NCBI GenBank assembly: GCA_017561105.1
Contig: JAFZDR010000167.1
Location: 1 to 29,687 of the forward strand
Reading direction: 5' to 3'
From: Alistipes sp.
GTDB lineage: Bacteria > Bacteroidota > Bacteroidia > Bacteroidales > Rikenellaceae
DNA length: 29,687 nt
A program made the position numbers and the translations under genes. The notes under the pieces were generated by a model, which saw only the letters and a list, made by a program, of their open reading frames with translations, had not been told where the DNA came from and did no database searches. This document shows positions 4,952 through 23,411 of the stretch, one piece after another (the stretch's first letter is position 1; the number at the start of each line of letters is the position of its first letter).

Positions 4952-4959
4952 CCCCCCCC
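4952..4959 (-). repeat. G8 homopolymer upstream of the beta-barrel gene
   Basis: Eight consecutive G on the coding strand lie in the leader or promoter region of the beta-barrel gene. Tracts of this length can slip in replication and change promoter spacing or leader structure. Confidence 0.6.
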
Positions 4960-19696: not shown

Positions 19697-19820
19697 GTAA
19701 AATTATTATTAAAAACCACCATCGCAGAACAAAGTTTTTAATTTTTTCACCGCTCTTTGCGCCACTCTTTATATTTCATAATATAAAATTAGGAAGATTT
19801 TTTTTGCATTTTATACGAAA

Positions 19821-19879
19821 TATGCCGAAAAATCACTATCTTCGAGGGTAAATATTGCATATTTTGCACATTCGGCATA
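19821..19879 (+). promoter_or_regulatory. Inverted repeats flanking the GLUG gene promoter region
   Basis: Perfect 9-base inverted arms, tatgccgaa (19821-19829) and ttcggcata (19871-19879), enclose a 41-base segment containing TATCTTCG (19837-19844), a seven-of-eight -7 match. They could be paired regulator half-sites, the stem of a leader hairpin, or a very short invertible segment. The right arm ends 28 bases before the start codon. Confidence 0.4.
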
Positions 19880-19907
19880 CGGAAAAACAACTAAAAAATG
19901 AACTGAT

Positions 19908-22900
19908 ATGAAAACTTTGACTAAACTTTTTGTGGCGGTTGCAGCGTTGGCAGTTGGATTTGCTTGTACAACCGACGCAACCAATGACCTCGGCGCAAAC
20001 ATCCTGGGGGGGGGTAAAACTACTATTACACTTTCATTGGAGGAGTCGCGTACACAGCTCGGCACCGAGGCTAATGGAATTTACCCCGTTTCGTGGTGTG
20101 ATAACGACGCCATTTCGGTAAATGGCACCCCTTCAAAGTCGATTACTATCGCTAATGGTGGCAAGGTGGCTACCTTCACCTTCGACGGTGTGGTGAACTA
20201 CCCTTACAACATCGCATATCCTGCGGCAGCTGATGGTAAGGTTATCTTCGCTGCGAAGCAGTCGCACACCGAGAGCACTTTTGCTAACGGTGCGGCAACT
20301 ATGTATGGCTATGCAGAGTCGGAAGGTGGCATGAAACTCAACCACCTCACAGGTGTATTGAAGATCGCTGTTCAGGGCGACAAGACCCTCTCTCACGCCC
20401 AGATTTCGACCATTGACCGTGCCCCTATCGCAGGCACCTTCGCAATTGACTTCGCATCGGGCGAGGTCTCTCCTACCGCAGAGTCGGCAGTCGTTATCAA
20501 CTACTCGTTTGGTGATGGCGTGCATCTCTCGTCGACACCGCTCTATATGCATAATTCAGTACCCGAGGGCGAATACGACGAGCTCTATATCACACTCTAC
20601 GACACCGAGGGTGGCGTGATGTTCGCAAAGACTAAGGCTGACGAGAAGAGACCTCTCGGGGCGGGTGTTGTGCGCCACTTCACTACCCCTATCGATTATA
20701 TGCCGACTTCGTCGCTCCATATCATCAAGGACGTAGCATCATTGAAGGCGTTGCCAAGTGCAAATACCGATGCTGTAGTGATTTGCGATATCGATCTCTC
20801 GGGCGAGGCATGGACTCCGCTCAAGGGTTATAGCGGAACTCTCAATGGTAATGGCTACGCTATCAAGGGTTTGACTGCTCCATTGTTCGAGAGCACAAGC
20901 GCAACTATCAAGGGCTTGCACCTCGAGGATGTGAACATCACCAAAAACTCGTTGACTTCAATGGGAGCTTTGGTCGGCACCTACAGCGGTACCGAGATTT
21001 CGCACTGCTCGGCAAGCGGAAATATCACTTTGACCCGAGCATCTACCGCTGTTACCAACTTGAGTGCTCTCATTGGTAGCATCACAACCACTTCGAACTA
21101 CATCGTTAGCGATTGTACCAACAACTGCGTGATGAATCTCACCTTGTCGTCTACAAACTCGAAGTACAACTTCAATGTCGGCGGTGTCGTTGGCTTCACT
21201 GCTGATGTTGCCGACACCGTAGAGGGTCACTTCGTGAACAATACCAACAATGCGGCTATCACCGTTTCAACTCCTGAGGGTGGTTCGTTGGTTAGCCAGC
21301 TTGTTTTGGGTGGTGTTTTGGGCTATATCGGCTTTGTAGATACATACATCGACGGTTGCCATAACACTGCAAACATTAGCGCAAATATCGCATCTACCAC
21401 AGGTGTTACCGTAGTTGGTGGTGCTGCGGGTGCTGTATATCGTGCAACAACCGGCAAGACAGCCTATGTTGTGGATGCAAATAATATCACCAACTCGGGC
21501 AAAGTTACCGTTAACGTAAACTCGACCAATGCTATCAATGTTGCGGGTTGCTTCGCTCGTTTGTGCGACGACAAGCATACCGGATCAATGAAGGTGGAGA
21601 ACTTCGTAAATAGCGGTGCCATTGCATTGAATAGCGACACCTCTTGTAGCGGTAAGACATATATGGGAGGAGTCATTGGTTGGGGTGTAAACTCTATGGC
21701 TTGTAAAAATCTCCGCAACGAGGCGACCGGTACCGTAACCGCAACTATGGCTTCGAAGACCGGCGAGGAGTTCCACATTGGTGGTCTCTTCGGTTACTTG
21801 CGAGTTTTGAAGTTGAGCAATATGAGCGCTAAGGACTGCTACAACAAGGCACAGATCTCTTCAAACTTGACTGCTGCCGAGTGTAAGCACAATGTTGGCG
21901 GTTGCTTCGGTTTGTTGTTCCCATTCACATCCAATGCCTACAACATCACATTGGATAATGTCGATAACTACGGCGGTATTCTCATCAACTGCAAGAACAA
22001 GGCGAGCGAAACCAATGTTGGTGGTATCGTGGGCGGTATGACCGATGGTACAACAAATACTGCAACCACAAATGTATTCAAGATTATGAATTGCGACAAT
22101 GTGGGCGACAGCAACAATAAGTTCCATATCACTAACGGTGCTTACGGCACATTCCACGTTGGCGGTATTATGGGCCCTTGTTTCTCGCATGTCGATATGG
22201 ACGATTGCTCTAACAGTATGGACTTCCTCTTCGATGCCGACAAGGCTACTACTACCAATATGTGGGGCGGTTGCATCGTTCGATTCACTCCGCAGGCAAA
22301 GGTTGAAGGTCGTACAACAACTATCGACAACTTTACCAATACAGGTAATGCCCTCTTTATTCCAAAGACCTCGATTGCGGGTTACAATATCTATTCAGGC
22401 TTCGTGTCATATATGGCAGCCGATGGCCCTGTGCACGCCGTAATAGCTAACAATATTGTAAATAAGGGTAATATCAAGGTAGACTCTCCTCTCATTAGCA
22501 ACACCCTCTTTGCAGGCGGTTTCGGTGGATACTACCAGTACAAGAATAGCTTGACTATGTCCAATAGTACCAACTACGGAAGCATCGATATTACTACAGA
22601 ACAGTCTAAGGGTAATGTCTTCATCGCCGGATTCGTAGGCACTACATATCACGCAGGCGCAAACCTTGTCTTCACAAATTGCCACAACGAAGAGAGTGCT
22701 ACCATATCATTCCACACCTCTAAGCACGAGGTGGACTACAACATCTTCCTGGGCGGTCTTTTCGGCTTGCCACGCGTAGGTGTTGAGTTAAATAACTGTA
22801 GCAACAAGGCTAATGTTACCTTAACCGGTAGTCATGAGTACCCTACAGAGACTTTCTATACTGTTGTAGGCGGTATCATCGCACGCTTCAGCGGTACATT

Positions 22901-23411
22901 CTTGAACCTCTCTGATGTTACCAACACAGGCGATATCATTATCGGTACAGACGAGAAGCCATTCAGCATCAACACTATGTTGAAAGTAGGAGGTATTGGT
23001 GGATCGGTAGAGGGCACGGCCACTTGCACCTACGACTTCAAAGCACCAATACTCAACACAGGCGATATCCTCTATACAAATGTAACTATCGGCAACTTGG
23101 AGGCATCATACATCGGTGGTGTGGTTGGCGAGACTACCGTGCCGATTTCGAACGTAAGCGCAATCTGCGACATCAAGGCTATGGCTATTCCAATGAAGGG
23201 TATGATTATGGGTATCCCTTATGCCGAGGCGACCAAGGTGACAAACTTCACCGTTGGTGGCTCGATCATCACTGACTACAACGTCGAGGACGAGAGCTAC
23301 AAGTCTATATACCTCGATCAGTCGAACTACTTCAACTACATCTACGGCACTCCTATCGAGCAGAGTGTTGCAGAGGCTGATGGTGGCTCGTGCACATCTG
23401 TAATCAAGTAA
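19908..23411 (+). CDS. Large fimbrillin-like/GLUG-repeat surface lipoprotein
   Basis: The 1167-residue product starts with a signal and a probable lipobox (AVGFAC, Cys20), so it is probably a surface lipoprotein. Residues about 37-265 resemble the fimbrillin/Mfa-like beta-sandwich domain of Bacteroidales (TITLSLEESRTQLG, a WCDNDAISV segment, LNHLTGVLKI). From about 350 to 1075 at least thirteen GLUG-like units recur every 45-60 residues, with cores such as VGGVVGF, MGGVIGW, IGGLFGY, VGGIVGG, LGGLFGL and IGGVVGE, alternating with NxxNxGxI-type strands: a long beta-helix. Adhesion or glycan binding is likely but inferred. A G9 tract (20006-20014) encodes GGG just after the lipobox; slippage would end translation early. 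It is followed by a 38-codon ORF in the same unit. Confidence 0.85.
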   Translation: MKTLTKLFVAVAALAVGFACTTDATNDLGANILGGGKTTITLSLEESRTQLGTEANGIYPVSWCDNDAISVNGTPSKSITIANGGKVATFTFDGVVNYPYNIAYPAAADGKVIFAAKQSHTESTFANGAATMYGYAESEGGMKLNHLTGVLKIAVQGDKTLSHAQISTIDRAPIAGTFAIDFASGEVSPTAESAVVINYSFGDGVHLSSTPLYMHNSVPEGEYDELYITLYDTEGGVMFAKTKADEKRPLGAGVVRHFTTPIDYMPTSSLHIIKDVASLKALPSANTDAVVICDIDLSGEAWTPLKGYSGTLNGNGYAIKGLTAPLFESTSATIKGLHLEDVNITKNSLTSMGALVGTYSGTEISHCSASGNITLTRASTAVTNLSALIGSITTTSNYIVSDCTNNCVMNLTLSSTNSKYNFNVGGVVGFTADVADTVEGHFVNNTNNAAITVSTPEGGSLVSQLVLGGVLGYIGFVDTYIDGCHNTANISANIASTTGVTVVGGAAGAVYRATTGKTAYVVDANNITNSGKVTVNVNSTNAINVAGCFARLCDDKHTGSMKVENFVNSGAIALNSDTSCSGKTYMGGVIGWGVNSMACKNLRNEATGTVTATMASKTGEEFHIGGLFGYLRVLKLSNMSAKDCYNKAQISSNLTAAECKHNVGGCFGLLFPFTSNAYNITLDNVDNYGGILINCKNKASETNVGGIVGGMTDGTTNTATTNVFKIMNCDNVGDSNNKFHITNGAYGTFHVGGIMGPCFSHVDMDDCSNSMDFLFDADKATTTNMWGGCIVRFTPQAKVEGRTTTIDNFTNTGNALFIPKTSIAGYNIYSGFVSYMAADGPVHAVIANNIVNKGNIKVDSPLISNTLFAGGFGGYYQYKNSLTMSNSTNYGSIDITTEQSKGNVFIAGFVGTTYHAGANLVFTNCHNEESATISFHTSKHEVDYNIFLGGLFGLPRVGVELNNCSNKANVTLTGSHEYPTETFYTVVGGIIARFSGTFLNLSDVTNTGDIIIGTDEKPFSINTMLKVGGIGGSVEGTATCTYDFKAPILNTGDILYTNVTIGNLEASYIGGVVGETTVPISNVSAICDIKAMAIPMKGMIMGIPYAEATKVTNFTVGGSIITDYNVEDESYKSIYLDQSNYFNYIYGTPIEQSVAEADGGSCTSVIK
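20006..20014 (+). repeat. G9 homopolymer inside the GLUG lipoprotein gene
   Basis: Nine consecutive G span residues L33-G36. In the present length the frame is open. Gain of one G puts TAA immediately after the tract. Loss of one G shifts into a frame that stops at 20119-20121. The tract can therefore act as an on/off switch. Confidence 0.75.

Follow-up and report, generated by a model that had tools for sequence, protein, structure and literature searches.

A run of nine G near the start of a gene for a 1167-residue lipoprotein of Alistipes sp. is probably (at about 0.7 by our estimate) a poly-G contingency switch that now stands in its ON state and belongs to a set of similar tracts that extends across the genus Alistipes. 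The gene lies in the window, by which we mean the whole stretch of 29,687 nucleotides that was analysed; the source assembly measures 1.64 Mb in 246 contigs and is 69.6% complete. Many tracts of the genus are located in the signal peptide, in the linker that follows the lipobox or in the leader of exported proteins. The reading as a switch is built on the tract and its reading frames, the length profile of G runs, their placement on the sense strand, an ORF offset shared with a homologue (L136), the states of sibling tracts and a pair of G9 and G10 versions in one assembly. Slippage at the window locus and its rate are inferred, as are the surface exposure of the product and an adaptive value. 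The features of the window gene are the following.

19708..19907, plus strand: upstream region of the window gene, without a G run of five or more, unlike the G9/G10 leaders of several paralogues.
19908..23411, plus strand: intact ORF of the 1167-aa lipoprotein, with a putative N-terminal beta-sandwich and a long GLUG-type beta-helix (translation and domain searches).
19908..19967, plus strand: lipoprotein signal peptide and lipobox ending GFA-C (translation; assigned by inspection).
20006..20014, plus strand: G9 homopolymer, made of the third base of CTG, GGG GGG and the first two bases of GGT; part of L-G-G-G.
20015..20017, plus strand: TAA met with one more G, immediately 3' of the tract (frame reading).
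20016..20699, plus strand: putative N-terminal beta-sandwich (residues 37-264), resembling Bacteroidales putative adhesin/fimbrial proteins.
20119..20121, plus strand: TAA met with one fewer G, the first stop in that frame (frame reading).
20706..23312, plus strand: beta-helix (about residues 267-1135).

Across the tract the native codons are ATC CTG GGG GGG GGT AAA. A change of one unit shifts the frame, and both alternative frames run into a stop (at 20015 and at 20119), a property by which contingency loci are recognised. The preliminary description had given the position and length of the tract, the two stops reached with one G more or less and a protein of 1167 residues, all of which proved exact. 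It had also placed the tract right after the lipobox, but the Cys codon occupies 19965-19967 and the G9 begins 38 nt downstream. Its proposal of phase variation by slippage is partly supported: the tract, the frames and the lipoprotein design are confirmed, and a genus-wide class of G8-G10 tracts, the offset shared with L136, the out-of-frame siblings and the G9/G10 pair agree with it, but no length variant was found at the window locus itself. No G or C run of the window is longer than the G9. Next comes a minus-strand G8 (4952-4959); it precedes by about 53 nt the probable ATG of P0002, a secreted protein without Pfam match, and may be a leader or promoter tract.

Replication slippage among lengths of 8, 9 and 10 G would carry the ORF out of frame, or back into it, shortly past the lipobox. 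Loss of the frame would lead to a stop either directly 3' of the tract or 35 codons further on, and the lipoprotein would be lost. The OFF state would then consist of a short lipopeptide only and the ON state, which is that of the assembly, of the 1167-residue lipoprotein, which a reverse slip would bring back.

The N-terminal part of the protein may be of the fimbrillin-like (type V pilus) or FimB/Mfa2-type class of Bacteroidales adhesin lipoproteins. The protein contains the GLUG beta-helix region of M26 IgA1 protease, its residues 267-668 matching the beta-helix of these enzymes. A Pfam scan of 30 family members (E <= 0.01) gave matches to PF05342 (N-terminal region) and PF07581 and to no other family, and no M26 catalytic or peptidase domain was found in it. 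The family profile gave 0 matches at E <= 0.01 among sequences of solved structures, and no relative was found when the protein P0001 was scanned against the genome contig database.

The G9 tract is not due to chance. When the gene's own codons were shuffled synonymously, the longest G run reached nine or more in 6 of 20,000 shuffles, a figure that overstates chance because two thirds of the GGG codons of the gene lie inside the tract. GGG serves for 3 of the 129 Gly codons of the window gene (2 of them within the tract) and for 9 of 509 in 11 long ORFs of the window. Exact G runs were then derived for 11 family-holding Alistipes/Rikenellaceae MAGs of the genus by subtraction of overlapping words (952 G7, 612 G8, 294 G9 and 51 G10) together with the listed G10 places. 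A random decay of about four-fold per extra base was expected; the observed runs instead climb to a maximum at nine (22 G7, 75 G8, 201 G9, 35 G10, 5 G11 and 2 G12). The assembly of the window, with 0 G7, 3 G8, 5 G9 and 2 G10, also displays the opposite of random decay. Since the 11 genomes had been picked for holding the family, G9 words were also counted in 101 genus genomes, an even sample of a larger group, and in 117 genomes from elsewhere in the order. None of the 101 lacks a G9 word, and the median density in the genus is 10.0 per Mb against 1.2 per Mb in the rest of the order, or about eight times as high. Over-representation of G runs and a non-random length class, both characteristic of contingency loci, are therefore present. 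By comparison, the excerpted text of a survey of 99 prokaryotes describes poly(G) as generally under-represented in coding genes and 9 genomes as having an excess of runs of 7 or 8 G (PMC2831843).

A match to the lipoprotein family was found in 33 of the 101 genus genomes. We read the starts of 60 family genes, 20 of them from the window's own genome (window gene included) and 40 from ten other genomes. The latter were taken in rank order from the matches extending to the N-terminus, with exceptions: L126 and L146 were added in the knowledge that a tract was nearby, and G068:C50 (with 90 nt of upstream sequence) and G047:C15:85-891 were left out. A G9 or G10 occurs within 450 nt upstream in 20 of the 60 genes, and three carry a G9 inside the ORF, within its first 300 nt, namely the window gene, L136 and L137, the last with its tract in the signal peptide. 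Over these two intervals together the 60 genes have 23 tracts of at least G8 and none of C8 or longer, so that 23 of 23 tracts lie on the sense strand. L136 comes from another species and is 39% identical over residues 1-380. Its G9 is at ORF offset 98, exactly as in the window gene, and is followed by the same GGGGGGGGGTAAAAC, so one extra G would bring the same immediate TAA.

Protein records include ten close relatives with 85-97% identity. At the tract GGGK is found in P0004 and P0009 and EGGK in P0005; four orthologues have GGQ, with two residues fewer, and two more have other residues. Gly-Gly-Gly is thus absent from seven of nine full-length orthologues and, with GGGK in the other two, the tract belongs to part of the clade. 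P0004, a separate record with 97% identity, encodes GGGK in frame. P0013 (88% identical) is without the N-terminus, which may reflect an allele that is out of frame or an artefact of a contig edge. In 180 genus genomes, all matches with E <= 1e-100 beyond the window's own assembly stay at or below 52% identity. No tract is present in L123 (genome G005), whose N-terminus is the most similar one in DNA, with 64% identity over residues 1-233; a contig end truncates it.

Elsewhere in the genus, the pattern ATGAAA..TGY..G9 was matched 45 times, at 38 distinct places, in 21 of the 101 genomes, against 14 times for the reversed pattern, and its products, by inspection, include lipoproteins and SusC-like receptors. 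In-frame tracts, with at least 100 codons beyond them, make up 19 of the 38 places. At 9 the tract is out of frame, meaning that another frame is open for at least 100 codons, at 6 a stop precedes the tract and 4 are ambiguous. At least one of the nine out-of-frame places (L221) is unlike a signal peptide. By the same rule the G6 controls, which comprise 50 of 71 exact-G6 places, gave 25 in frame, 4 out of frame, 14 that stop early and 7 ambiguous. The surplus of out-of-frame places at G9 is suggestive only, as 9 of 28 against 4 of 29 at G6 is not significant (one-sided Fisher p=0.09), and neither is 7 of 24 against 2 of 21 for signal-peptide-like starts alone (p=0.10). A seemingly stronger contrast with the first 30 controls (18 in frame, 1 out) weakened to 25 and 4 (p=0.09) with the next 20 listed.

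In genome G070 the end of L161 (contig C17) and the end of L155 (C12) overlap, with 127 identical flanking bases, and one has G9, the other G10. The pair is clearly a length variant within one assembly, of which homopolymer read error is a possible source. In the G9 version the frame of the receptor-like gene runs on past the tract as far as the contig end; we take L161 to be an STN/TonB receptor, a name given by inspection. Four SusC-like receptors from three genomes (L226, L228, L232 and L302) carry G9-G12 at one shared site near signal-peptide cleavage; the SusC-like label of L212, L226 and others is our own, by inspection. L006 (own genome, C98) and L152 (G070), presumably M16-peptidase-like genes as judged by inspection, have a G9 at a matching site about 195 nt upstream in two species. 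Other tracts have no obvious frame to switch: in L016, L017, L148, L149, L163 and L166 a G8 or G9 lies immediately 3' of terminator-like hairpins or tRNA genes. Of the 20 tract loci read in one sibling genome, no fewer than 4 sit after terminators or a tRNA, and part of the tract abundance may therefore be mutational.

A different class of tract forms part of a leader hairpin, which is absent from the upstream region of the window gene. Among the collected loci, 39 places agreed with the rule of eight pyrimidines shortly before a run of at least G7, and in 29 of them a TAnnTTTG box, which we take by inspection to be a promoter box, is located 45-60 nt upstream of the tract. Six were dropped from the alignment (L104 and L149 as not promoter-linked, L053 for its weak arm, and L098, L121 and L186 as near-duplicates), two degenerate forms (L026 and L130) were added by eye, and the alignment has 34 distinct rows. 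The typical leader consists of AAAATCCCTCCCCCGA, an AT-rich loop, TC, G10 and ATTTTGAGG. The 34 elements form 11-19 base pairs each (-14.1 to -32.8 kcal/mol), and their consensus fold has nine pairs, in two of which both sides change. The purine arm is a pure G9 or longer in 32 of the 34 and the opposite arm varies between C and T. This asymmetry is no more than a hint that the purity of the tract itself is kept, since both the selection of loci and the rule used to find them are biased towards pure tracts.

In one Rikenellaceae MAG, L186, L209 and L201 differ upstream, and the sequence common to them begins 35-51 nt ahead of the loop and extends into the leader; two of their three contigs end 21 nt past the tract. 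Such an arrangement suggests copying or recombination between family loci, and part of the leader conservation may accordingly be recent copying. L082 (G9) and L186 (G10), a leader pair within one genome, had been considered as a length variant of one locus; their upstream sequences diverge and they are different loci. The 3' part of the leader element (17 bases) was found in 45 stretches of the contig database, 20 of which are titled Alistipes or Rikenellaceae. A known RNA element was sought in Rfam for 8 sources, with no match at the gathering level; another 8 sources (two shared) searched at E <= 1 gave seven matches, all below gathering scores.

Within the window's own genome, three paralogues of the window gene have a G9 or G10 in the leader hairpin (L001:400-409 and L004:1501-1509, both on C6, and L010 on the minus strand of C112), some 45-55 nt past the start of the TAnnTTTG box. 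Upstream of the ATG of L026 (C83), CCCTTTCT/AGAGAGGG replaces the poly-G, so that the stem is kept and the tract is absent. On the minus strand at L008 (C108), a G9 lies within the 19-nt TTTG-TAAATTTG spacer before a gene judged lipoprotein-like by eye, where slippage would alter promoter spacing. Alistipes may have a two-layer poly-G phasome for an expanded family of adhesin-like lipoproteins, in which tracts in the ORFs of some members, such as the window gene, would switch the frame and tracts in the leaders of others would act as the arm of a hairpin with a cis pyrimidine arm, about 40 nt after the putative transcription start. We offer this extension tentatively, with the odds somewhat against it.

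Other accounts of the window tract must be weighed. It is rather unlikely that the tract slips as a mere by-product, in a genus that tolerates G8-G10 anywhere through a slippage equilibrium, perhaps with lax repair, and that the gene is a bystander. Such an account would accommodate the G9 tracts found after terminators and tRNA genes, the occurrence of the G9 word in all 101 sampled genomes and the absence of Gly3 from 7 of 9 full-length orthologues. It is difficult to reconcile with the position of all 23 family tracts on the sense strand and with no C8 or longer, with the 45 matches against 14 for the reversed signal-peptide pattern, and with the tract of a distant homologue, L136, at the same ORF offset. 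A stable Gly-Gly-Gly linker after the lipobox that happens to use GGG is improbable. Gly-rich linkers do follow the Cys in several lipoproteins of this study, but GGG is rare (9/509 in the long ORFs; 3/129 in the gene, 2 of these in the tract), runs of nine or more appeared in only 6 of 20,000 shuffles and the tract also takes in the G of CTG. On codon use and synonymous shuffles we reject a plain Gly linker as the main account.

A role of the tract as nucleic acid and not through the frame, whether it paired in an RNA hairpin or served as a hot spot of recombination between paralogues, is likewise improbable for the window gene, where the tract is inside the ORF, has no adjoining pyrimidine arm and is not preceded by such a hairpin upstream of the gene. 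The idea, which may hold for the leader tracts, draws on the paralogues, with a G9 or G10 upstream of the ATG in 20 of 60 family genes, 34 leader elements that fold with 11-19 base pairs each, and three loci of one genome with an identical leader below different upstream DNA. A sequencing or assembly artefact, with another true tract length and an accidental ORF state, has a negligible chance of being correct. The assembly is indeed fragmented (246 contigs, 69.6% complete), but the ORF is open across the tract for 1167 codons, and P0004, in a different record and with 97% identity, has GGGK in frame, on which ground we reject the artefact as the main account. The contingency switch remains the preferred reading of the window tract.

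Slippage as a mechanism is already known from the poly-G genes of Campylobacter and Neisseria. The excerpted text on Campylobacter jejuni describes a similar situation, with tracts in ORFs and some intergenic, mainly of G9-G10, affecting surface structures, and attributes the predominance of G9-G10 to an insertion bias at G8 and a deletion bias at G11 and above (PMC8355987). The length profile of the 11 Alistipes genomes matches that of C. jejuni as given there (PMC8355987, in part). The two differ in phylum, and Alistipes has lipoproteins, SusC-like receptors (by inspection) and the leader-hairpin class. In Neisseria, the haemoglobin receptors HmbR and HpuAB similarly have a poly-G within the ORF of an outer-membrane receptor, mutation of which switches expression (PMC3786947, excerpted text); the proteins are different, and switching is described in Neisseria whereas in Alistipes it is inferred. 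The leaders of the paralogues resemble Helicobacter pylori tlpB, where, in the excerpted text, the length of a poly-G repeat in the 5' leader tunes tlpB expression (PMC8295292). There the trans sRNA RepG pairs with the repeat, whereas the Alistipes leaders have a cis pyrimidine arm just upstream, and the comparison concerns these leaders and not the tract of the window gene. A leader hairpin whose length tunes expression would be new.

In the same order, invertible promoters of capsule and SusC/SusD loci also provide surface phase variation, but by DNA inversion and not by slippage (PMC12632263, excerpted text). The excerpts of PMC11868660 and PMC12632263 treat phase variation in gut Bacteroidales as DNA inversion; the terms 'slipped', 'homopolymer' and 'tandem repeat' are absent from PMC12632263 and from a Bacteroidales-phage paper (PMC12118408). 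Among the matches listed in open-licence PubMed Central, none dealt with poly-G tracts of gut Bacteroidales or with phase variation through strand slippage in Alistipes. Should the two-layer phasome be real, the leader would be a cis-encoded, length-tuned RNA rheostat, comparable to tlpB/RepG minus the sRNA, and each cell would display its own combination of adhesin-like family members. If a slippage phasome in Alistipes is confirmed, the surface of this gut commensal would vary by a mechanism that inversion-finding software overlooks.
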